DNA of 64,000 nt from an uncultured Paraburkholderia sp. (GTDB lineage: Bacteria; Pseudomonadota; Gammaproteobacteria; Burkholderiales; Burkholderiaceae). How positions within the stretch are numbered: the first letter of the stretch is position 1; each line of letters starts with the position of its first letter. The position numbers and the translations under genes are program-made. A model generated the notes under the pieces. That model saw only the letters and a program-made list of their open reading frames with translations. It searched no databases and had not been told where the DNA came from. The stretch lies in assembly GCA_940746715.1 (NCBI GenBank), contig CALNWN010000003.1, positions 462,272-526,271 of the forward strand, in the 5' to 3' direction. Of this stretch, positions 13,410-60,814 are shown piece by piece.

Positions 13410-13680
13410 CGTTGGATGACTGCGTCCACGTTCCTTTTTCCGTCGACGCTGCGGCTATGGAGCCAAGCCGGCATAAAACTGCGCTGACGGGCCTGCCAGC
13501 CCCGCGGCAACCACGCTAACCGGCCATGCCGCTGTTCGCCTCGCTATGCTCGAGCGCCGTCCGCGATGTTGACATGCCGTTGACGTGATGCCGAGGTGTC
13601 ACCGCCGTGGCGCTGGGCGCGACCGCATCCCGATTCCCTATCCGATTTCCCCAATTAAAGTACTCCGCAGGAGACTCGAC

Positions 13681-15240
13681 ATGTCCGACAAACTGATCAT
13701 ATTCGACACTACGCTGCGTGACGGCGAGCAATCGCCCGGCGCGTCGATGACGAAAGAAGAAAAAATCCGTATCGCGAAGCAACTCGAGCGGATGAAAGTC
13801 GACGTGATCGAAGCGGGCTTTGCTGCGAGCTCAAACGGCGACTTCGAAGCCATTCACACCATTGCCGAGCTGATCAAGGACAGCACCATCTGCTCGCTCG
13901 CGCGCGCGAACGACAAGGACATTCAACGTGCGGCCGACGCGCTGAAACCGGCCGAGCGTTTCCGCATTCACACGTTCATCGCGACCTCGCCGCTGCACAT
14001 GGAAAGAAGCTGCGCATGACGCCGGACTAGGTGTTCGAGCAGGCGAAGCTGGCCGTGCGCTTCGCGCGCAAATTCACGGACGACGTCGAGTTTTCGCCGG
14101 AAGACGGCAGCCGCTCGGACATGGATTTCCTGTGCCGCGTGCTGGAAGCGGTGATTGCCGAAGGCGCGACCACCATCAACATCGCGGACACGGTCGGTTA
14201 CGGCGTGCCGGAGTTGTACGGCAATCTCGTCAAAACGCTGCGCGAGCGCATTCCGAACTCGCACAAGGCGGTGTTCTCGGTGCACTGCCTGCCATAACGA
14301 TCTCGGCATGGCGGGCGGTCGCCAATTCGCTGGCGGGCGTGCAGATCGGCGGCGCGCGTCAGGTGGAGTGCACGATCAACGGTCTCGGCGAGCGGGCGGG
14401 CAATACGTCGCTCGAGGAAATCGTGATGGCCGTGAAGACCCGCAAGGACTATTTCGGACTCGAACTGGGCCTCGATACAACGCAGATCGTGCCGGCATCG
14501 AAACTGGTGTAGCAAATCACCGGTTTCGTCGTGCAGCCGAACAAGGCCGTGTGGTGGGCGCGAACGCATTCGCGCACGCATCGGGCATCCACCAGGACGG
14601 CGTGCTGAAGGCGCGCGACACGTACGAAATCATGCGCGCGGAAGACGTGGGTTGGAGCGCGAACAAGATCGTGCTCGGCAAGTTGTCGGGCCGCAATGCG
14701 TTCAAGCAGCGCCTGCAGGAACTGGGCATTGCGCTCGACAGCGAGGCTGAACTCAATAATACCGCATTCGCGCGCTTCAAGGAACTGGCCGACCGCAAGG
14801 CGGAGATTTTCGACGAGGACATCATTGCGATCGTCACCGAGGAATCGGCTGAGGCGCAGGAGAAGGAGCACTACAAGTTCGTGTCGCTGTCGCAGCATTC
14901 GGAGACCGGCGAGCAGCCGCACGCGAAGATCGTATTCGCAGTGGACGGCAAGGAAATCACCGGCGAAGCGCGCGGCAACGGTCCGGTGGACGCCACGCTC
15001 AACGCAATCGAAACGGAAGTGGGCAGCGGTTCTGAGCTGCTGCTTTACTCGGTGAACGCGATCACCACGGGCACGCAGGCGCAGGGCGAAGTGACCGTGC
15101 GGCTGTCGAAGAGCGGGCGCATCGTCAATGGTGTCGGCACCGATCCGGACATTGTCGCCGCGTCGGCGAAAGCGTATATCTTGGCGCTCAACAAGCTGTA
15201 TTCGAACTCCGACAAGCTTAACCCGCCGCGCTCGGAGTGA
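13681..15240 (+). pseudogene. leuA: 2-isopropylmalate synthase, multiply disrupted
   Basis: LeuA commits 2-oxoisovalerate to leucine. The N-terminus ([15 protein letters not shown]) is clear and the C-terminal regulatory half is an open frame, but the first 870 bases hold six lesions. They are: a missing A near 14003 (GAAAG for GAAAAG); TAG for CAG at 14028; a CTGC tandem duplication near 14288; a GGCG-type 4-nt insertion near 14313; TAG for TCG at 14511; and a TG duplication near 14552. Correcting them gives 516 residues, the normal LeuA length, and restores the HCHNDLGMA metal-binding motif. The start has a good AGGAGA ribosome site. Unless another leuA exists, leucine synthesis is lost while ilvBHC is kept. 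Confidence 0.93.
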
Positions 15241-18706: not shown

Positions 18707-20007
18707 ATGGCGAAGTGGCAACGGAAGACGGCAGCGGTCTTGGCGGCAATCTCGGTGGCAGTGATGGCGGCGGCCGGCGGGGCTCGCGCGGCGCAGACCG
18801 TCCAGACGGCCCAGACGGCCCAGACGGCCGCCGCGCCTGAAACGGCGCAGAAGCTCACCGGCGCACCGATCCAGCTTGCGCTGATCGAAGGCATGTCCGG
18901 TCCGTTCGCGAACGCCGGCGCGGCGGTGGAGCGCAATCTGCGCTTCGGCGTCGAACAGGTCAACGCGCGCGGCGGTGTGCAACTCGCAGACGGCGCACAT
19001 CCGCTCGAGCTGGTCGTGCTGGACAGCAAGGGTGGCACCGAAGAAGCGCTCACGCAACTGCGCGCGGCCGCCGATCGGCACATCGGCTATATCCTGCAGG
19101 GCAACAGTTCAGCGGTCGCGGCAGCGCTCATCGGCGCCATCGACAAGCAGAACAGCCGCGAGCCGGGCAACCGCGAGCTGTTCCTCAACTATTCCGCTGA
19201 CGACCCCGCGCTGACCAATGCCAGCTGCAGTTTCTGGCACTTCCGCTTCGACGCGCACGCGGGCATGCGCATGGACGCGCTTGCTGACGTGATCCAGCGC
19301 GACAAGGCGGTGAAGAAGGTCTATCTGCTGAACCAGGACTACAGCTTCGGGCAGACGTGAGCAGTCTCGCGCGCTCCGCGCTGCGGGCGAAGCGCCCGGA
19401 CATCGCAGTGGTCGGCGACGAGTTTCATCCGATAGGCCGCGTGAAGGACTTCGCGCCGTACGTCGCGAAAATGCGCGCGAGCGGTGCCGATGCCGTGATC
19501 ACGGGCAACTGGGGCAACGACCTGACGCTGCTCGTGAAAGCGGCGCGCGAGCAGGGTCCCGACACGAAGTTCTACACGTTCTATGGGAACAGTCTTGGCG
19601 CGCCGGCCGCGCTCGGGGAGGCGGGCGTCGGGCGCGTGATCGCGGTGGCGGACTGGCATCCGACGCGGGCGGCGCGGCCTCGGATGCGTGGTACCAGGCG
19701 CGCGCTTCCCGGCTGCGCAGGACGACTATCCGGTGCTGCGCATGCCGTTGATGATCGAAACCCTGGCCGCGGCGATGAACCGCGCGAAAAGCGCCGATCC
19801 GAGGGCGGTCGCGCGCTGGAAGGCATCCGGTTCGACAACGGCTTTCACGCGTCGTGGATGCGGGCGGACGACCATCAACTGATCCAGCCCCTTTACGTGA
19901 TGGAAATGGACAAAGCCGGCACGCGCGGCGTGCGTTTCGACAACGAAGGCTCCGGGTTCGGCTTTCGCACGGTGCCGCCGACTGTCTGCAAGATGAAGCG
20001 GCCGTAA
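18707..20007 (+). pseudogene. ABC transporter substrate-binding protein (amino-acid type), decayed
   Basis: A periplasmic binding protein of the Leu/Ile/Val or urea type. The N-terminus has a signal peptide (AAVLAAISVAVMAAAGGARA) and the ligand-domain start IQLALIEGMSGPFANAG. The first frame ends after QDYSFGQT. Continuation (VGDEFHPIGRVKDFAPYVAKM) is in a second frame, PAAQDDYPVLRMPLMIETLAAAMNRA in another, and GIRFDNGFHASWMRADDHQ in a further one. At least four indels of 1-2 bases are needed: near 19354, 19667, 19690-19720 and 19815. The N-terminal linker carries a tandem array of CAGACGGCC (QTA repeats). It has no permease or ATPase gene beside it. It is clearly non-functional. Confidence 0.88.
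18794..18829. repeat. Four 9-nt tandem repeats in the decayed binding-protein gene
   Basis: CAGACCGTC is followed by three perfect copies of CAGACGGCC, encoding QTV-QTA-QTA-QTA just after the signal peptide. A perfect array suggests recent slippage expansion. Confidence 0.9.
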
Positions 20008-43558: not shown

Positions 43559-43982
43559 ATGAAGTCCTCGATTTACAGTGTCCGCACGGCCATCGGTTTG
43601 AAGGCTGGTTTGCTTCGGCTGATGACTTCGAATCGCAGCAGTCCGCGAGCTTGTCGAATGTCCGATCTGCGGAGCGAAAGAGGTGAGCGGTTCGCCGTCG
43701 GCTCCGCGCCTGAATCTCTCAGGTGCGGTCGAAACGAAAGCGCCCGCGGCCTCCGGTGACCTGCAGGCGCGGGCCATGCGTGCATTGCTCGAGGTACTGG
43801 AAAAGACGAAGAACGTGGGCGACCGCTTCGCCGAGGAAGCGCGGCGCATTCACTACAACGAAGCGCCGGCACGCAATATTCGCGGCGTCACGACGCCGGA
43901 AGACGCGCGAGCTTTGGTCGAAGAAGGCATCGAAGTGATGCCGCTGCCGGTCCCGGCTGCCTTGAAGGAACCGCTGCAATAG
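43559..43982 (+). pseudogene. DUF1178 family protein, two frameshifts
   Basis: Read with corrections, the N-terminus is MK-VLDLQCPHGHRFEGWFASADDFESQQS, then VECPICGA, a zinc-ribbon-type pair of Cys motifs. The C-terminal part (ARRIHYNEAPARNIRGVTTPEDARALVEEGIEVMPLPVPA) is an open frame. One base is missing near 43565 and one near 43651. Adding both gives 141 residues, the usual family length. Function of the family is unknown. It lies directly before two acyl-CoA dehydrogenase genes. Confidence 0.83.
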
Positions 43983-44030
43983 CGCAGTGGCTCACTGGCG
44001 ATGGGTGGTAGCGGCCAGGAGACACTGCGT

Positions 44031-45222
44031 ATGAATCTGGACTATTCCCCCGCTGAGAAGGCGTTCCGCGCCGAGATCCGCGTTTGGCTCGAAGCCGGTC
44101 TGCCTCGCGAACTGAGCGAGAAGGTACTCAATCACAAGCGTCTGAATCGCGAAGACTTCGCAAGCTGGCACAAACTGCTGGGCGCGCGCGGCTGGTCGGC
44201 TGTGGCCTGGCCGAAGGAATACGGCGGCCCCGGTTGGGACGCGACCCAGCGTCATATCTGGGACGAAGAGTGCGCGCGTGTCGGCGCGCCGACGGTCTTG
44301 CCATTCGGTGTCTCCATTGCGCCGGTCCTCATGAAATACGGCAATGAGGCCCAGAAACGCTACTACCTGCCGCGCATTCTCGACGGTACCGACTTGTTGT
44401 CAGGGCTACTCGGAGCCCGGCTCCGGTTCGGACCTCGCGTCGCTGCGCACGCGCGCTGAACGGGTCGGACATCACTACGTGGTCAATGGGCAGAAAACGT
44501 GGACTACATTGGGGCAGCACGCCGACATGATGTTCTGCCTCGTGCGCACGGACAGCGGCGCGAAGAAGCAGGAGGGGATTTCGTTCCTGCTTATCGACAT
44601 GAAAACGCCCGGAATCACGGTCCGTCCGATCGTCACGCTCGACGAAGACCATGAAGTCAGCGAAGTTTTCTTCGAAGACGTAAAAGTGCCCGTCGAAAAT
44701 CTGGTCGGCGAGGAGAACCGCGGCTGGACATACGCGAAGTATCTGCTCGGGCACGAGCGCACCGGCATCGCACGTGTCGGGCAGTCAAAGCGCGAGCTGA
44801 TTTTCCTCAAGCGTCTCGCGCTCGATCAGAAAAAGAACGGCAAACCGCTTTTGCACGACCCGGTGTTCGCCGCCAAAGTCGCGAATCTGGAAATCGAACT
44901 GATGGCGCTGGAAGTCACCGTGCAGCGCGTGGTAGCCAACGAGGCAGGCGGACGTGGGCCGGGGCCCGAGGCGTCGATGCTCAAGATCAAAGGCACGGAG
45001 GTGCAACAGGCGTTGACCGAACTCATGTTCGAAGCCATCGGGCCGCTTGCCGCACCGTTCGACGTGCCGTTCCTCGAAGGCAAGCGCCAACACAGCCTTG
45101 CTGGCGACGACGATGCGGCGCCGTTAGCCGCGTATTACTTCAACTTCCGCAAGACGTCGATCTACGGCGGCTCGAACGAAATTCAAAAGAACATCATCGC
45201 CCAGATGATTCTCGGACTTTGA
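44031..45222 (+). pseudogene. Acyl-CoA dehydrogenase (first), frameshifted
   Basis: FAD-dependent acyl-CoA alpha,beta-desaturase family. The N-terminal helical domain MNLDYSPAEKAFRAEIRVWL through YYLPRILDGTD is in one frame. QGYSEPGSGSDLASLRTRAER, the FAD/substrate loop, and the rest to the C-terminus (YGGSNEIQKNIIAQMILGL) is in another. Two bases are missing near 44396, where the family reads DWWCQGYSEPG; the restored length is 397 residues. The two Trp codons there have also changed to TTG. It is 10 bases from the next dehydrogenase. Confidence 0.88.
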
Positions 45223-45232
45223 GGAGCGGCGC

Positions 45233-46360
45233 ATGGACTTCACCTTCAACGACGAGCAACAGCAGTTTGCCGACGCGCTGCGCCGCTATCTCGACAAGAG
45301 CTACGGCTTTGAAGCGCGCCAGGCGATCGTGCAGTCGGATACCGGTGTTTCGGAGGCCCACTGGGTAGCCTTCGCGAGTTGGGACTGACGGTATTACCGG
45401 TGCCTGAAGCTCACGGCGGCTTCAACGGCGGACCGGTCGACATGCTGGTCGTCATGCAAGAACTCGGCCGTGCTCTGGTGGTCGAGCCGTATTGGGCGAG
45501 CGCCGTGGGCATCGAGGCCGTGCGCCTCGCCGGCACAGGGCAGGGCGAAGATGCATCGCTGCTCGAGCGCGCGGCTCAAGGCGAGATCAAGCTGGCGTTT
45601 GCATTCCACGAGCCGCAGGCGCGCTACGACCTGTTCGATGTCGCAACCACTGCACATACGAAGGCGAGCAGCAGACGCTTAGCGGAAAGAAGTCGGTGGT
45701 GCTGCATGGCGCGCAGGCGGATTACTGGATCGTTCCGGCGCGCGTGAACGGCGAAATCGCGCTATTCGTCGTTGCGCGCGAGGCCGCTGGTGTGAAGATC
45801 ACCGATTACCGCACCATCGACGGGCAACGTGCTGCCACGCTGGAGTTTGACCGCACGCCGGCACGCCGTCTGAGCGGCCCCGGCACTCGGGCGCGGCGGC
45901 TCTCGAGCACATCGCGGATTACGGCACGCTGTTGCTGTGTGCGGAAGCCATCGGCGCACTCGACGCATTGAACACGGCAACGGTCGACTACACCAGGACG
46001 CGCCAGCAGCTCGGTCAGCCCATCGCGCGCTTCCAAGTCTTGCAGCACCGTATGGTCGAGATGCTGATTCACGCCGAGCAGGCGCGTTCGCTCACCTACC
46101 TGGCCGCCATGCGCTATTCGAGCGAAGATGCCGATGAGTGCCGCCGCGCAATCTCCGCGGCGAAGGTGCGCGTGGCGCAGGCCGCACGGTTCGTCGGCCA
46201 GCAGGCGGTCCAGTTGCACGGCGGAATGGGCGTCACGAACGAGGTCGCCGCCGCGCATCTGTTCAAGCGTCTCGCTATCATTGAAGCGACATTGGGCGAT
46301 GTCGATCATCATCTCGCACGCTTTGCCGCGCTGCCCGGGTTTGTCAGTACCGAAGTTTGA
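45233..46360 (+). pseudogene. Acyl-CoA dehydrogenase (second), three frameshifts
   Basis: Starts MDFTFNDEQQQFADALRRYL after a GAGGAG site. Four successive frames are needed: to HW; ELGLTVLPVPEAHGGFNGG to FDVATT; YEGEQQTLSGKKSVVLHG to PGTR; and ALEHIADYG-type sequence into CAEAIGALDALNT, ending AALPGFVSTEV. One base is missing at each junction (near 45365, 45653 and 45893), a net loss of three. Such subunits often pair with another dehydrogenase as a heteromer in steroid or aromatic acyl-CoA breakdown. Confidence 0.87.
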
Positions 46361-48211: not shown

Positions 48212-48322
48212 ATCGCACGATGCTGCTGGCGAGCTGGCTGCAACTACGGGCGCTGCAAGACCGAGCTTGCCGCCGACAAAACGCCCATCAAGTTCTGTCA
48301 GCAGTGCCTCAAACGCGCGTGA
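48212..48322 (+). pseudogene. Possible remnant of a small Cys-rich (zinc-ribbon-like) protein
   Basis: A plus-strand frame without a start codon reads CWRAGCNYGRCKTELAADKT then FCQQCLKRA and a stop. CxxxxC and CxxC pairs suggest a C-terminal zinc ribbon. It overlaps the 3' end of the fused minus-strand gene by 14 bases. No upstream part survives. It may be a decay relic or chance. Confidence 0.3.
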
Positions 48323-50429
48323 CCGGCGTCTTGACACGATCCGCCGCGCCGGGCTCCATGTAACGCGCGAGTTCGAGCTTGGCAATCGCATTGCGATGCA
48401 CTTCGTCCGGGCCGTCGGCGAAACGCAGCGTCCGCGCCGACGCATAAGCGTACGCGAGCGGGAAGTCGTCGCTGACACCGCCGCCGTGTGCCTGGATCGC
48501 CCAGTCGATTACCTGACACGCCATGTTCGGCGCCACGACCTTGATCATCGCGATTTCGCCGCGCGCAGCCTTATTGCCCACGGTGTCCATCATGTACGCG
48601 GTTTTCAGCGTCAGGAGCCGTGCCTGTTCGATCAGGCAGCGGGCCTCCGCAATGCGCTCCTGCGTCACGCCCTGCATGGCAACCGGCTTGCCGAAGGCGA
48701 CGCGTTGCAGCGACCGTTTGCACATCAATTCGAGCGCGCGCTCTGCAAGGCCGATCAGACGCATGCAATGATGGATCCGTCCCGGTCCGAGGCGGCCCTG
48801 CGCAATCTCGAAGCCGCGCCCTTCGCCGAGCAGCATATTGGTCGCCGGCACGCGCACGTTGTCGAGCGTGATTTCCATATGGCCATGCGGCGCGTCGTCA
48901 TAACCGAACACGGAGAGCGGACGGTGCACCGTGATGCCGGTGGCGTCGGCGGGAACGAGGATCATTGATTGCTGTTGATGGCGCGGCGCCTCGGGATCGG
49001 TCTTGCCCATCACGATATAGATCTTGCAGCGCGGATCGCCCGCGCCCGACGACCACCACTTGTGACCGTTGATCACGTAGTAGTCGCCGTCGCGCACAAT
49101 GCTGGTCTGGATATTGGTGGCATCCGACGAAGCGACTTCGGGCTCCGTCATCAGGAATGCAGAACGAATGTGCCCTTGCAGAAGCGGTTCAAGCCATTCG
49201 CGCTTGTTCACCTCGCTGCCATAGCGCTCGATCGTTTCCATGTTGCCGGTGTCGGGCGCCTTGCAATTGAACACCTCCGGCGCCCAGGGCACGCGCCCCA
49301 TGATCTCGCACAACGGCGCATATTCGAGGTTGGTCAGCCCGGCGCCGCGTACGGAATCCGGCAAAAACAGATTCCACAGGCCCGCGTCGCGCGCTTGTGC
49401 GCTTGCCGCGGTGCCGTCGACGACACGCTTCATGATGCCCTGCAGAATCGCCGCGATGCGAAACATGTTGTACGCCTGGTAGAAATTCCAGTCGCCGCGA
49501 ATCTCGAAACCTGTGCGCGTGCAATATTGCTCGACGTAGTGCTGCTCGTCGGGGATGCCGAGCGCCGTTAAGTCAAGACCCGCGATGCCGTGGAACTGCG
49601 CGGGATCGACATGCCACGCCATGCAGTGATACGCGAAATCCGCGAGCGGATCGCCGAGCGTCGACAATTCCCAGTCGAGTACGGCCAGCACTTTCGGTTC
49701 CTTGCGATCGAACATCAGATTGTCGAGCCGGTAATCGCCATGCACGACGGACACGCGTTCGCCGCTTTCGGCGGGCATATGCTGCGGCAGCCATTCGATG
49801 AGACGCTGCATCGCCTCGATCGGTTCGATTTCCGACGCAAGGTACTGCTTGCTCCAGCGGCCGATCTGACGCGCGAAATAGTTGCCCGGCTTGCCGTAGT
49901 CGGAAAGCCCCACGCTCGCCGGGTCGACGCTGTGCAGCGCGGCGATCACGCGGTTCATTTCATCGTAGATCGCGGCGCGTTCAGCGGCGCTCATGCCGGG
50001 CAGCGACGGGTCCCACAGCACCCGGCCCTCGACGAACTCCATCACATAGAAGGCGCGGCCTATCACGCTTTTGTCCTCGCACAGCGCGAGCATTCTGGCG
50101 ACGGGCACGTCTGTGTCGGCGAGCGCATGCATCACGCGGTATTCCCGTTCGACGGCATGCGCGGACGGCAGCAATTTCGCCGCCGGCCCGGGCTTCGCGC
50201 GCATCACGTAAGCGCGCGAGGGCGTGACGAGCTTGAAGGTGGGATTCGACTGCCCGCCGGCGAACTGCTCGACCGTGAGCGGCCCCGAAAAACCATCGAC
50301 ATGCTGCGTCAACCACGCGCCGAGCGCTTCATGGTCGAAGCGCTGCCATTCATTGACGGGGCGCGTGCCCTCGAACGCCGAGTAATCCGCCCGCTGTTCC
50401 AGTTCGCCGCTTTCTGACGCTTGCACCAT
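48309..50429 (-). CDS. Chimeric APH-family kinase / acyl-CoA dehydrogenase
   Basis: A 706-residue open frame. Residues 1 to about 345 are an aminoglycoside-phosphotransferase-like domain ([12 protein letters not shown], the kinase motif VHGDYRLDN at about 229-237, [11 protein letters not shown]). From about residue 346 on it is an acyl-CoA dehydrogenase ([46 protein letters not shown]). In Burkholderia these are usually two genes. Here the kinase end and roughly the first 55 residues of the dehydrogenase seem deleted in frame, joining them at AQARDAG. Animal ACAD10/ACAD11 have the same domain order but with a whole dehydrogenase domain. A GGAGGAGA site precedes the start. Whether it is active is unknown; loss of the N-terminal helices argues against the dehydrogenase. 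Confidence 0.85.
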
Positions 50430-50449: not shown

Positions 50450-51166
50450 TCAGCTACGCGAGTATTGGATGAATTGTGCGTAGAGAATTTCCATCGTCGT
50501 ATTGCGGATGTCGCGATGCAGCGGCGACGGCGGGGAATAATTGATCGCGCGCAGCACCCAGTCGCGCGGTGCCGAGCCGACGTCGAGCGCGTTGATGCAG
50601 CCCGTCGCCTGCGCGAGGTGGCCGAAGAATGTGCGGCCGCCGGCGGTGAGCGCATGCGAGAGAATCGCGCGATTCACCCCGCCGTGCAGCACCAGCAACA
50701 CGGTGTCCCACGAACTGTCCTCGCGCAACGCGGCGACGGCGGGCAGGACGCGATCGAACAATTCGCCGATCGTCTCGCCGTCGAGAAAGCGCGTGCTTTC
50801 CGGCACGATACCGTCGAACACGCCGAGAAACGCCGCTTCGAGATCCTGCAACGGAATCTGCCGCAGCTTGCCGCCGCGAATCTCGTGCCACGCCGGCTCG
50901 ATCTCCACTTCGATCCGCTGACCGGTCTCGGCCAGCACGCGCTGCGCGGTTTCGACGGTGCGCGGCAGTCCGCTCACGATCACACGGTCGAAGCGCACCT
51001 GCTGTTCGGAGAACACGCGGCCCGCCGCGCTTGCCTGCTCCCGGCCGTTGGCGTTCAAGGGCACGGTTTCAGGATCGATTGTCCGGCCTGAGTCGTCGAA
51101 GTACGTCACATCGCCGTGACGCATCAGATAGATGCGCCGGCGCTTCGGTAGCTGATAGGCGGGCAT
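50450..51166 (-). CDS. Histidine phosphatase family protein
   Basis: A 238-residue phosphoglycerate-mutase-like phosphatase. The phospho-His motif [13 protein letters not shown] lies near residue 15, with the second catalytic His in [12 protein letters not shown]. The substrate is unknown. I chose the inner ATG ([12 protein letters not shown]), because the preceding 36 residues are an out-of-frame reading of the hydratase. It sits in the operon between the enoyl-CoA hydratase and the kinase/dehydrogenase fusion. The frame is intact. Confidence 0.87.
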
Positions 51167-51176
51167 GGTTCCTCGC

Positions 51177-51917
51177 TTACTTGTAGACGGGCGGGCGCTT
51201 CTCGAGGAACGCGGAGATGTCCTCCAGCCCGTCGCGATGATGCAGCGAGGCGACGAAGTTATCGCGTTCGGCAACGAGATGCGTGGAAAGCGGCTGCGTG
51301 CCGGCCGCGCAGACGAGCGTCTTGATGCGCGCGGCCGAATTGGGCGAGATCTTGCCGAGCTCGTCCGCCCATGCGACGGCGGCGTCGCGCGCGGCGCCCG
51401 GCTTCACGAGCCTGTTGACGACGCCGAGTTCGTGCAAACGCGCGGCGCCGATCGGCTTGCCTTCGATCAGCACTTCCGTGGCCAACTGGCGAGGCAGCGC
51501 CTGCGCGAGGAACCACGAGCCCCCGCCGTCGGGTGTGAGGCCGACGCGTGCATACGACATCACGAATTTGGCGTCTTCGGCCGCGACGCCGTCGACCGCG
51601 GCAATCACCGGTTTCGACGACAGCCGCAACGCCGAGATCCACTCGGCCAGCAGGTCGATGCTTTGTGCCTGCACAGAAGGATCTTTCGCGCGGTTTTCGA
51701 GCAGGCGGTTCAGGTTGCCGCCCGCGCAAAAAAAGTTGTCCGCGCCCGCGATGACCACGGCGCGAATGGACGGATCGCGTTCCACTGAATCGAGCGCTTC
51801 GATCCCGGCCGCATACATGTCGGGGTGCAAGGCGTTGCGTGCGCCGGGGTTCGACAGCGTGAGGACCAGTGTCGATTCGCTTTCTGGCGGGCGCGAGGTG
51901 AGCAGTTCGGCGCTCAT
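51177..51917 (-). CDS. Enoyl-CoA hydratase/isomerase with apparent internal deletion
   Basis: Crotonase-fold protein of 246 residues where about 262 is usual. The first oxyanion-hole element is present (NFFCAGGNLNRL). After PVIAAVDG the sequence passes directly to VAAEDAKFVMSYARVGLTPDGG. The family segment that holds the second oxyanion-hole Gly and the helix after it (a GxAxGxG...ACDL type sequence, about 16 residues) is missing. The frame is open, so it will be annotated as intact, yet it is very likely inactive. Its start overlaps the dehydrogenase stop (ATGA) and it lies ten bases from the histidine phosphatase. Confidence 0.85.
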   Translation of the reverse strand: MSAELLTSRPPESESTLVLTLSNPGARNALHPDMYAAGIEALDSVERDPSIRAVVIAGADNFFCAGGNLNRLLENRAKDPSVQAQSIDLLAEWISALRLSSKPVIAAVDGVAAEDAKFVMSYARVGLTPDGGGSWFLAQALPRQLATEVLIEGKPIGAARLHELGVVNRLVKPGAARDAAVAWADELGKISPNSAARIKTLVCAAGTQPLSTHLVAERDNFVASLHHRDGLEDISAFLEKRPPVYK

Positions 51918-53470
51918 GATGGTGTCTCCGTATCGTTGTCTGCGGCGTCGCACTGAGTGAGCGACAGGCCGAGTTGCGCGCGGCGCGCGAGCCACGGCGA
52001 CGGCCGGTAGCGCGGCTCGCCGAGCACCTCGAACATATTGCGCAAAATGGTGAGGATGGTTTTCGCGCCGAGCGCGTCGCCGAGCGCAAGCGGCCCGCGC
52101 GGATAGCCGAGGCCGAGCATCACGGCAAGGTCGATGTCTTCCGGCGACGCAATCTGCTTTTGCGCGATGTCGCAGCCGATGTTGACGATCGTCGCCACCA
52201 CGCGCTGGGCGACGAAACCCGTCGAGTCGCGAATGACGGTGACCGGCACGCCGTCGGCGGCAAAGAGCGCGTGGCCGGCATCGCGCGAGGCGCGCGTGGT
52301 GGCGGGTGTGGTCATCAGCGTGCGGCGTTGGGCGCCGACGAGCGGAAACAGCGCGTCGATGGCGACAACGCGGCTCGCGTCGAGCGCTTCGTCGACGGCG
52401 GCCGTGGTGGCGTCGTGGCCGAACGGTGTGACGACAATCAGCGAGTCGGCGGCGGGCGTCGCGCCGTCGTCGAGCTTCACGCCAGCTTTGCCGATGAGTT
52501 CCACGACGGCTTCGTAAGCTTCCGGGTAGCGCTTGCTGACCCAGACGCTCGCCGGCAGCGCAGTGGGCGCGGGGGCTTCCGCGGCCGCCTGCTGCTTGCC
52601 GTCCGCATAGCGATAGAACCCTTCGCCGGTCCTGTGGCCGAGCAGTCCGCCCGCGAGCCGCGTGCTGGTAATGGGCGAGGGCGTAAAGTGCGGCTCCTCA
52701 TAAAACTGATGGTAGATCGACTCCATCACCGGGTGTGAAACGTCGAGCGCGGTCAGGTCGAGCAGCTCGAACGGGCCAAGGCGAAAGCCTGCTTGCTCGC
52801 GCATGATTCTGTCGATGTCGACGAAACTCGCCACGCCTTCGCCGGCCACGCGCAGGCCCTCGGTATTCATGCCGCGGCCCGCGTGATTGACGATGAAGCC
52901 CGGCATGTCTTTCGCGCGAACCGGCGTGTGGCCAATGCGGCGCGCGAGGTGCATCAACGCGTCGCCTGCCTCGCGGTCGCTGCGCAGGCCGTCGATCACT
53001 TCGACGACTTTCATGAGCGGGACCGGATTGAAGAAGTGATAGCCGACCACGCGCGACGGGTCGCTACAGCCCGCGGCGATCGCCGTGATGGACAGCGACG
53101 ACGTGTTCGACGCGAGCACGCAACGTCCGCTCACCACGGTCTCAAGTTCGCGAAAGAGCGCCTGCTTGACTTCGAGCTTTTCGACGATCGCCTCGATCAC
53201 GAGATCGCAATCCACCAGTTCGCTGATCGAATGCGCGGCCTTGACGTTGGCGAGCGCGGCGAGCGAACGCGCGTCGTCGAGCTTGCCTTTGGCGGTGAGC
53301 CTGGCGAACGTGTCGGCGAGGTAATCTCGCGCGGCGCCGATTGCAGCCGGATTCGGGTCGTAGAGGCGCACGGTGAGACCGGCGAGCGCCGCGATCTGCG
53401 CGATGCCGCGGCCCATTGCTCCGCTGCCGACAATGCCGATAGTCTCGATGCTGAAATTACGAGAGGTCAT
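51914..53470 (-). CDS. 3-hydroxyacyl-CoA dehydrogenase (PaaH-like)
   Basis: NAD-dependent oxidation of 3-hydroxyacyl-CoA, cytosolic. It has 518 residues from the chosen start (MTSRNFSIETIGIVGSGAMGRGIAQI); an ATG six codons upstream at 53488 is possible. The NAD site GSGAMGRG, the catalytic His/Glu region VVGYHFFNPVPLMKVVEVI and GFIVNHAGR are visible. A second C-terminal dehydrogenase domain repeats (TGFVAQRVVATIVNIGCDIA). This double-domain form is typical of PaaC/PaaH enzymes of phenylacetate degradation. The frame is intact. Confidence 0.9.
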   Translation of the reverse strand: MTSRNFSIETIGIVGSGAMGRGIAQIAALAGLTVRLYDPNPAAIGAARDYLADTFARLTAKGKLDDARSLAALANVKAAHSISELVDCDLVIEAIVEKLEVKQALFRELETVVSGRCVLASNTSSLSITAIAAGCSDPSRVVGYHFFNPVPLMKVVEVIDGLRSDREAGDALMHLARRIGHTPVRAKDMPGFIVNHAGRGMNTEGLRVAGEGVASFVDIDRIMREQAGFRLGPFELLDLTALDVSHPVMESIYHQFYEEPHFTPSPITSTRLAGGLLGHRTGEGFYRYADGKQQAAAEAPAPTALPASVWVSKRYPEAYEAVVELIGKAGVKLDDGATPAADSLIVVTPFGHDATTAAVDEALDASRVVAIDALFPLVGAQRRTLMTTPATTRASRDAGHALFAADGVPVTVIRDSTGFVAQRVVATIVNIGCDIAQKQIASPEDIDLAVMLGLGYPRGPLALGDALGAKTILTILRNMFEVLGEPRYRPSPWLARRAQLGLSLTQCDAADNDTETPS

Positions 53471-53500
53471 TGTGTTGCTCGACTCCATGGTTATTTTAGA

Positions 53501-55687: not shown

Positions 55688-56113
55688 TTATACCGGGCTT
55701 TCCACGGCTGCGGCCGGGCTCGTCGAACCGCGAGGTGCATTGTCGGCAGGGTCAGCCAGCGAGGCGGCGAACGGCGCGGGCTGCGCGATCTGAAAGCCGA
55801 AATCGCGCGCGATCCGTTTCGCGAGTTTCAGCACGGCGCGATCTTTCGAAATCAGCCAGTGCGCCTGTGCGGCATGCGCGAGTTCGAGGAATTTCTGGTC
55901 GTCGCGGTCCTTGCATTTGGGCAGCGGCAGCGCGTCTTCGGGCTGCGCAGCAGGTTCGACAAGCTGCGCGAGGCGCGCGAGCACGGCGAGCGCGGCGGAC
56001 TTGTCCACCTTGCGTTCGACGAACTGCGGATCGTCGAACACGAGAATGTCGATCCAGACATTGGAATCGAGAACGACGCGCAAAGCGCCGCGTGAGGCAT
56101 GGGAACCGGGCAT
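55688..56113 (-). CDS. PIN-domain protein, shortened by an apparent in-frame deletion
   Basis: Putative ribonuclease toxin-like protein, 141 residues. It has the first acidic motif (RVVLDSNVWIDILVFDDP) and later KCKDRDDQKFLELAHAA and WLISKDRAVLKLA, which hold further acidic residues of the active site. Between FDDP and QFVERKVDK the family normally has about 30 residues (helix and the LAELxxVL segment). Here they are absent, though the frame is open. The C-terminus is an unrelated Pro/Ala tail. It is probably inactive. No antitoxin gene is adjacent. Confidence 0.72.
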   Translation of the reverse strand: MPGSHASRGALRVVLDSNVWIDILVFDDPQFVERKVDKSAALAVLARLAQLVEPAAQPEDALPLPKCKDRDDQKFLELAHAAQAHWLISKDRAVLKLAKRIARDFGFQIAQPAPFAASLADPADNAPRGSTSPAAAVESPV

Positions 56114-59174: not shown

Positions 59175-59823
59175 TCACGTGCGCGGTCCGCCGAGCCGGT
59201 ATCGCCGAACATCATAAGTGGTGACCCATGCGGGGCGGTAGACCGCGATCAATGCCGTCGACATTCCCGTGAACCATGCCTCGCCCGTGGCCAGTAATAA
59301 AAGCACGCTGAGCGCGTAACCTGCGGGCACGACAGTCGGCGAGCCGTCGGCAAGTGCAACGTGAACGCCGAGCGCCGCCGCCGTGAGCGAAACGGCAATT
59401 GCCGGCGACACAAAGCCCTGCCCGAAGATGAACATAAAGAGATTGCGCGGCAGCCACGCAATGCTGGCCCGCTGAAGCAGTGTCGAGATGCCGACCGGCA
59501 CCGCGCCGAACACGAGGAAAGTCAGCGCGATGCCTTGCCACGGTGCATCGAAGATCAGGCCCGCGAGACCCGTGACACTGCCATGGCAATGAGCGCGAGT
59601 GCCCAGTCGAACAGCGTGACGACGAGCGTTGCGCCGAGCAGATGCATGACGGTTCCGTCGTCGAGCCAGGCGTTGCTTGCCCACAGCACCGACACGGCGA
59701 CGATGATGGCCAGCCAGACATGCTGCAATGTGCCGTCCTGAAGACGTTTGAAAGGATTTTTCCACAGCGCAAGCGCGACCACTATCGCAGTGACGATCCA
59801 GCCACCGACAAGAGGAAACCCAT
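59175..59823 (-). pseudogene. COG3235-type membrane protein, two frameshifts
   Basis: A multi-pass inner-membrane protein related to energy-coupling-factor permease-like proteins. Reading with corrections gives MGFLL-VGGWIVTAIVVALALWKN, then HVWLAIIVAVSVLWASNAWLDDGTVMH, LALIAMAV-VTGLAGLIFDAPWQ and YALSVLLLLATGEAWFTGMSTALIAV. One G is missing near 59808 and one near 59578. Restored length is 216 residues. A metal-uptake role is possible from the family, but there is no partner gene nearby. Confidence 0.84.
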
Positions 59824-59928
59824 GAGTCTCATATTACTCGTTGGACGACAAAAGGTGTGAGCGGATTCCGTGCCAGCCGGTACACGCACTGGCAGAAACC
59901 GCGCGTCACGCTGCCGGCGCGCGCGTCG

Positions 59929-60814
59929 TCACATCACGAGGAACCTTCCGTGGACGGGTTCAGACGGAAGCTTCGCGGCAGGCGCGTCGTCGTGGGCCGT
60001 GCCGGGCTCGGCTGCCATCGGCAGAGGCGCTGCCGTGTCGTTAGCCGACAACGGGTATTCGAAGCGCCGCTGAGAGGCGCGCCGCAGCGGCACCAGGCCG
60101 GCTTGACCCATGACCGGCCGCAGCAGGTTGTCCCCCTTATTGCGCAGTACTTGCAATTGGTTCGTCAGCCAGCCGTTGTAAAGCGCGACCGCGGCGGCGC
60201 GATTCGGTGCGCCGAGTTGCTGGAATATGCTCGTCAGGTGGATCTTGACGGTGCCTTCGCTAATGCCGAGCGTGCGTGCAATCATCTTGTTGGTGCTGCC
60301 CATATGAACGCAGCGCATGATCTGCTCCTGGCGGGGCGAGAGTCCATTGGACAACCGCGCGCGGCTCGGCGGCGGGTTCTTTTCGTCGAACGGCCGGATG
60401 GCGGTGTCCGCGGGCAGCGGCGGATTGAGCGGCAGCGCGCCCGGCGGCACATAGTGCCCGCCCAGCAGCACCATTTCAAAGGCGCGCACGATCCAGGCAA
60501 GGATCGGTTTCGCGGGCCACGACGCCACGCACACCCTCGTCCATCAGCTCGCCCACTACCTTGGGCGAAATCTTGTCGGTCAGCACTGCGATGCGCAGAT
60601 CCGGGTAGTGACTGAGCAGATGCCGGACGTCCTTGACCGACATCCAGTCCTGCCAGTCGATGACAAGCAGATCGGGCCACTGACGCTTGAGCGTGCGTTC
60701 GACCTGGCGCCAGTCTTGCCCTTCGTTAAAGCGTGCCAGCCGGTTGATCTGCCGCAACAGCGCTTTGAGGCCGTCGCGTCGTTCCGCGTCTGAGTTGAGT
60801 ATCGAGAATCGCAT
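59929..60814 (-). pseudogene. LuxR-type response regulator, frameshifted
   Basis: The N-terminal receiver-like domain (MRFSILNSDAERRDGLKALLRQ, LLVIDWQDWMSVKDVRHLL) ends in MDEGVRGVVARETDPCL. The continuation IVRAFEMVLLGGHYVPPGALP and the LuxR helix-turn-helix (LSPRQEQIMRCVHMGSTNKMIARTLGISEGTVKIHLTSIF) are in another frame. One extra G near 60512 explains it; the restored length is 294 residues. The C-terminus has an unusual ~60-residue tail past the DNA-binding domain. No sensor kinase gene is adjacent. Confidence 0.86.

Follow-up and report, generated by a model that had tools for sequence, protein, structure and literature searches.

Animal ACAD10 and ACAD11 carry a kinase and an acyl-CoA dehydrogenase in one chain, in that order (8v3v; PMC12440821; PMC11342911). 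An open reading frame with the same arrangement lies in the 64,000-nucleotide stretch of an uncultured Paraburkholderia sp. genome analysed here (the window), and raises the question of whether it encodes a bacterial parallel to these enzymes or is a product of gene decay. The first-pass annotation had favoured decay, describing an APH-like kinase joined to an acyl-CoA dehydrogenase by an in-frame deletion. The frame is as described: it starts with ATG, runs for 706 codons and has exactly the coordinates first claimed. A Shine-Dalgarno-like CGGAGGAGACAC lies upstream of the ATG, and the chimera is probably still translatable from this, the kinase's own ribosome-binding site. Pfam places APH at residues 52-276, followed by an Acyl-CoA_dh_N match that enters the profile only at position 37 of 113 and then by the M and C-terminal domains. 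The parts of the chimera are as follows.

48309..50429, minus strand: chimeric open reading frame of 706 aa, kinase residues 1 to about 346 joined to the dehydrogenase from its residue 58
49380..50429, minus strand: APH/LvaA-like kinase half (chimera residues 1-350), with D232 and N237 kept and the ancestral C-terminal 18 residues absent
48309..49397, minus strand: ACAD10/11- and LvaC-like dehydrogenase half (residues about 345-706), with R546, H554, R557 and D672 kept and the first 57 residues absent
49380..49397, minus strand: deletion junction CAAGCGCGCGACGCGGGC, codons 345-350, the one copy left of an 18-bp direct repeat whose copies match imperfectly
48477..48488, minus strand: AHGGG-VSDD, where relatives have AHGGGGVSDD; one glycine codon of the four is lost

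Both truncations were measured against relatives; the dehydrogenase had been called truncated at its start by about 55 residues, which is right in kind and slightly off in extent, and the missing end of the kinase had gone unmentioned. The best solved relative by sequence is mouse ACAD11 (8v3v), and the alignment covers both halves of the chimera, each of which is homologous to its animal counterpart. The catalytic positions mapped from the mouse enzyme, D and N in the kinase and the R/H/R/D cluster in the dehydrogenase, are all retained. The chimera had been said to mimic ACAD10/ACAD11, and this holds for domain order only. The kinase-first order within one chain is present, but a complete dehydrogenase fold, including the N-terminal helical domain, is not. 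About 90 residues that lie between the aligned parts of ACAD11 (the start of the N-domain and the linker) are absent. Unlike ACAD11 and ACAD10, the chimera thus has no linker, a dehydrogenase shorter by 57 residues and by one FAD-loop glycine, and a kinase shorter by 18 residues; it is also recent in origin, confined to one genome and under relaxed selection (see below).

In congeners the kinase (about 368-376 codons) and the dehydrogenase (about 419) are encoded by separate genes that lie side by side, as a rule with 30-130 bp between them, and the ends of the separate genes are conserved across Burkholderiales. The nearest relative found (G107) is separated from the window's genome by a dS of about 0.1, compared with 0.3-0.8 for the other relatives tested, and carries the two genes separate and intact in colinear DNA with 3.6% mismatch across 64 kb. 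We examined the distribution of the fusion with a 130-residue query across the junction, searched in 147 other congeners and in 399 genomes sampled across the order. Among the matches listed, the only uninterrupted single match was in the window's own genome. The query was matched in 143 of the 147 congeners, with none of the matches listed crossing the junction, and the fused gene was not found in the 399 order-wide genomes; relatives sharing the fusion, the observation that the first-pass annotation had set against its own reading, were thus not found in either sample. A near-spanning match in one genome (G501) came from separate kinase and dehydrogenase genes, and a suspicious spanning match in another (G318) from a kinase with its own stop, where the retrieved sequence gave no match to the dehydrogenase. 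The window's own genome held no further close copy of either gene.

Relative to G107, 317 bp are absent at the junction: the kinase gene has lost its final 18 codons together with the stop, the spacer is gone, and the dehydrogenase gene has lost its start and first 57 codons. G107 and the other relatives examined have the two genes intact and adjacent, which bears out the proposal that a deletion made the fusion. Judged from these alignments, the window's genome descends from a congener with adjacent kinase and ACAD10/11-type dehydrogenase genes, and a single 317-bp deletion followed the split from G107.

The peptide AQARDAG at the junction had been said to resemble both the end of the kinase and an internal dehydrogenase segment. 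It does, and it is itself chimeric: AQA derives from the kinase's AQALDAG, and ARDAG from the dehydrogenase's (K/T)ARDAG. In G107 the breakpoint copies are CAAGCACTCGATGCGGGC in the kinase (AQALDAG) and ACAGCGCGCGACGCGGGC in the dehydrogenase (TARDAG); in the window's CAAGCGCGCGACGCGGGC, the letters before AGC are those of the kinase and the letters after it those of the dehydrogenase. Alignment with the relatives' separate genes thus revealed, at both ends of the deletion, the short homology that had been predicted, in the form of an 18-bp repeat. The homology is imperfect, however: the copies match at 14/18 positions in G107, 15-16/18 in G025 and 16/18 in G032, and the exact identity at the crossover is limited to 3 nt (AGC). 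Recombination at an exact repeat, in its strict form, is ruled out by this 3-nt identity in the extant sister. The breakpoint diagonal is nevertheless the top 18-mer match among 54,600 position pairs in G107 and is also the best in G025 and G032 (P about 0.001 relative to random positions with equal spacing), and the match is not due to chance. Misalignment at the repeat, by replication slippage or single-strand annealing, would account for the deletion; with an exact crossover identity of just 3 nt, a repeat-independent deletion is possible. The two copies share codon phase and encode nearly identical peptides, so that they join in frame whatever the length of the spacer. Repeats of this kind guarantee an in-frame fusion.

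The chimera has acquired a second in-frame lesion in its own lineage, one that the first-pass annotation had overlooked. The glycine column of AHGGGGVSDD is filled in 95/95 relatives and deleted here, leaving HGGGV, which departs from the conserved HGG-x-G motif. AHGGGGVSDD corresponds to the family's FAD-loop motif, as in MCAD. ACAD10 and ACAD11 require redox-active FAD (PMC12440821). The dehydrogenase half is very likely dead, because both the N-terminal helices and the invariant FAD-loop glycine are missing. In the kinase half, E120K and R280H fall at sites conserved in 76-77 of 78 relatives, the own-branch N/S is 11/10, and the radical changes include R28W, W287L and L318Q; this half is probably impaired. 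The frame is open and the catalytic residues are kept, and some residual activity is conceivable.

Own-branch dN/dS for the chimera is 0.255, compared with 0.085 for the sister (Fisher p=0.03). The frameshifted neighbouring genes give 0.170 and 0.057 (p=0.0045), and the nuo genes, which we presume to be such from gene order and lengths, 0.046 and 0.033 (p=0.32). With small counts, the kinase and dehydrogenase halves taken separately are non-significant (p=0.23 and 0.16). The chimera is under relaxed selection, similar to its frameshifted neighbours. Substitutions over the whole branch (15 N / 19 S) remain below neutral (p=9e-5), as do those of the frameshifted genes, and most of this branch may precede the deletion. 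The dN/dS of the chimera alone is not decisive for function, given that frameshifted neighbours yield similar values.

Damage extends beyond the chimera into neighbouring genes.

50450..51274, minus strand: histidine phosphatase family gene, upstream operon neighbour, intact
51177..51995, minus strand: enoyl-CoA hydratase gene, with a 48-bp in-frame deletion near 51577-51588 relative to all four aligned relatives
51914..53488, minus strand: 3-hydroxyacyl-CoA dehydrogenase gene, open
43561..46357, plus strand: three genes, for a DUF1178 protein and two acyl-CoA dehydrogenases, that are open in relatives and each broken by frameshift here
59178-60814: genes for a LuxR-type regulator and, next to it, a protein of no Pfam family, both of them intact in relatives but frameshifted in the window

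At least five genes between 43 and 61 kb are frameshifted, with intact counterparts in G107, G011, G025 and G032, and many 1-2 bp indels lie near the chimera. Further deletions at short repeats in the window measure 21, 27, 45 and 99 bp. Relative to G107, the window has 1014 bases deleted and 145 inserted, counts that are unpolarised. About 15 kb of nuo genes contain no broken frames, and this intact block amid broken frames argues against sequencing error. A PIN-domain gene shows an event like that in the chimera: at 56024-56042 it has lost 96/99 bp in frame, between short repeats that are almost the same (16/18).

The genome as a whole is small: it measures 5.18 Mb, whereas G107 has 7.3 Mb and most congeners have 7-10 Mb. 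Other small congeners have also lost the kinase-dehydrogenase pair: no close match to it turned up in G072 or G129, and the 4.1-Mb genomes G035 and G072 are without an intact pair. In G161 (L138, G161:C28:49000-54987) the kinase is cut by a different deletion that leaves its end out of frame, no dehydrogenase lies beside it and the phosphatase gene is broken, a pattern that represents independent erosion of the same operon as read from its sequence. Losses by the small congeners on their own fit a dispensable catabolic pathway. Reduced 4.1-Mb genomes are known from the amoeba symbionts P. bonniea and P. hayleyella (PMC9601139), which share genome reduction at the level of the genus with the organism studied here. 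Those genomes are described as streamlined with few pseudogenes (PMC9601139), whereas the window is full of fresh lesions.

What was lost can be proposed by homology. The activities of the two halves are consecutive in a known pathway (PMC11342911; PMC12440821), and B. pseudomallei orthologues can replace ACAD10 domains (PMC11342911). The ancestral separate pair would belong, through its likeness to ACAD10/11, to the same family as LvaA and LvaC of Pseudomonas putida and their Burkholderia orthologues, which are two proteins where the chimera is one damaged chain. By homology, the ancestral kinase would have phosphorylated 4-hydroxyacyl-CoA, and the dehydrogenase would then have eliminated the phosphate. 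Since the relatives' genes are ACAD10/11-like and hence LvaA/LvaC-like, the lost function was probably the entry of 4-hydroxy acids into beta-oxidation, a function that the chimera most likely no longer retains.

We consider it highly likely that the chimera is a fusion pseudogene, formed by deletion from an LvaA/LvaC-like pair and sharing the domain order of ACAD11 by happenstance, and it very probably lacks ACAD11 function. The deletion would have been tolerated because the organism, with its genome shrinking, no longer needed the pathway, and the chimera would represent a stage of decay before loss and not a newly functional enzyme. The claim of erosion rather than selection draws support from the frameshifted neighbours, the second in-frame lesion, the relaxed dN/dS and the reduced genome. 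A working bifunctional enzyme under selection, a recent bacterial parallel to ACAD11, is a very unlikely alternative: the 706-codon open frame, the retained D232, N237, R546, H554, R557 and D672, the consecutive activities of the two halves and the overall N/S below neutral would all suit it, but the dehydrogenase has lost 57 N-terminal residues and the invariant glycine, the roughly 90 residues found between the aligned parts of ACAD11 are gone, own-branch dN/dS has risen threefold as in the frameshifted neighbours, and other genes of the same catabolic cluster are broken. A kinase half that still functions by itself, or is retained for a different role, with the dehydrogenase half as passenger debris, is unlikely. 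The nearly complete APH profile match, the replacement of just 18 C-terminal residues and the intact catalytic residues are in its favour, and cleavage of ACAD10 between its kinase and dehydrogenase domains, as reported (PMC11342911), indicates that a covalent link is unnecessary; set against these are the kinase's own-branch substitutions, including those at conserved sites, and the prospect that, with no dehydrogenase to act on it, a phosphorylated acyl-CoA would go no further. We see only a slim chance that the deletion produced, in one step, a kinase-dehydrogenase fusion with some remaining activity.

The two other explanations deny the event itself. An assembly or sequencing artefact is suggested by the single draft genome in 51 contigs and by the abundant 1-2 bp indels nearby, which could hint at poor sequence, yet a repeat matching at 14/18 over 18 bp is far too short for assembly collapse, the broken frames lie outside the nuo genes, and the lesions include deletions of 25-317 bp that are unlike base-calling errors; we regard an artefact as extremely improbable. 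An ancestral fusion, later split in every relative, is refuted by the distribution, with no fused match among those listed for the 147 congeners or in the 399 order genomes, and is opposed by the conserved ends of the separate genes; nothing emerged in its favour, and its probability is negligible.

The deletion-born pseudogene resembles other fusion pseudogenes generated by deletion in reducing genomes in its short-repeat deletion, adjoining pseudogenes, excess of deletions and reduced genome, and differs from them in joining two consecutively acting enzymes with the frame kept. A literature search for precedents of deletion fusion in reducing genomes returned nothing directly on point. The locus provides a fully reconstructed, recent two-domain fusion by deletion in a decaying genome, one that mirrors a real animal enzyme; if the chimera were still partly active, it would show, caught in nature, how a fusion enzyme of the ACAD10/11 type can originate. 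Automated annotation would probably label the 706-aa frame intact, and an 'ACAD11-like' architecture in a bacterium is by itself no evidence of a selected fusion.

Two further genes in the window are also damaged. The gene at 13585-15237, presumably a copy of 2-isopropylmalate synthase (leuA), has several frameshifts relative to G107 and looks dead, and a leucine requirement of the organism is possible. The gene at 18707-19965, which we take to encode the substrate-binding protein of an ABC transporter, is frameshifted at several points and has lost 27 bp at an exact repeat of 10 nt.
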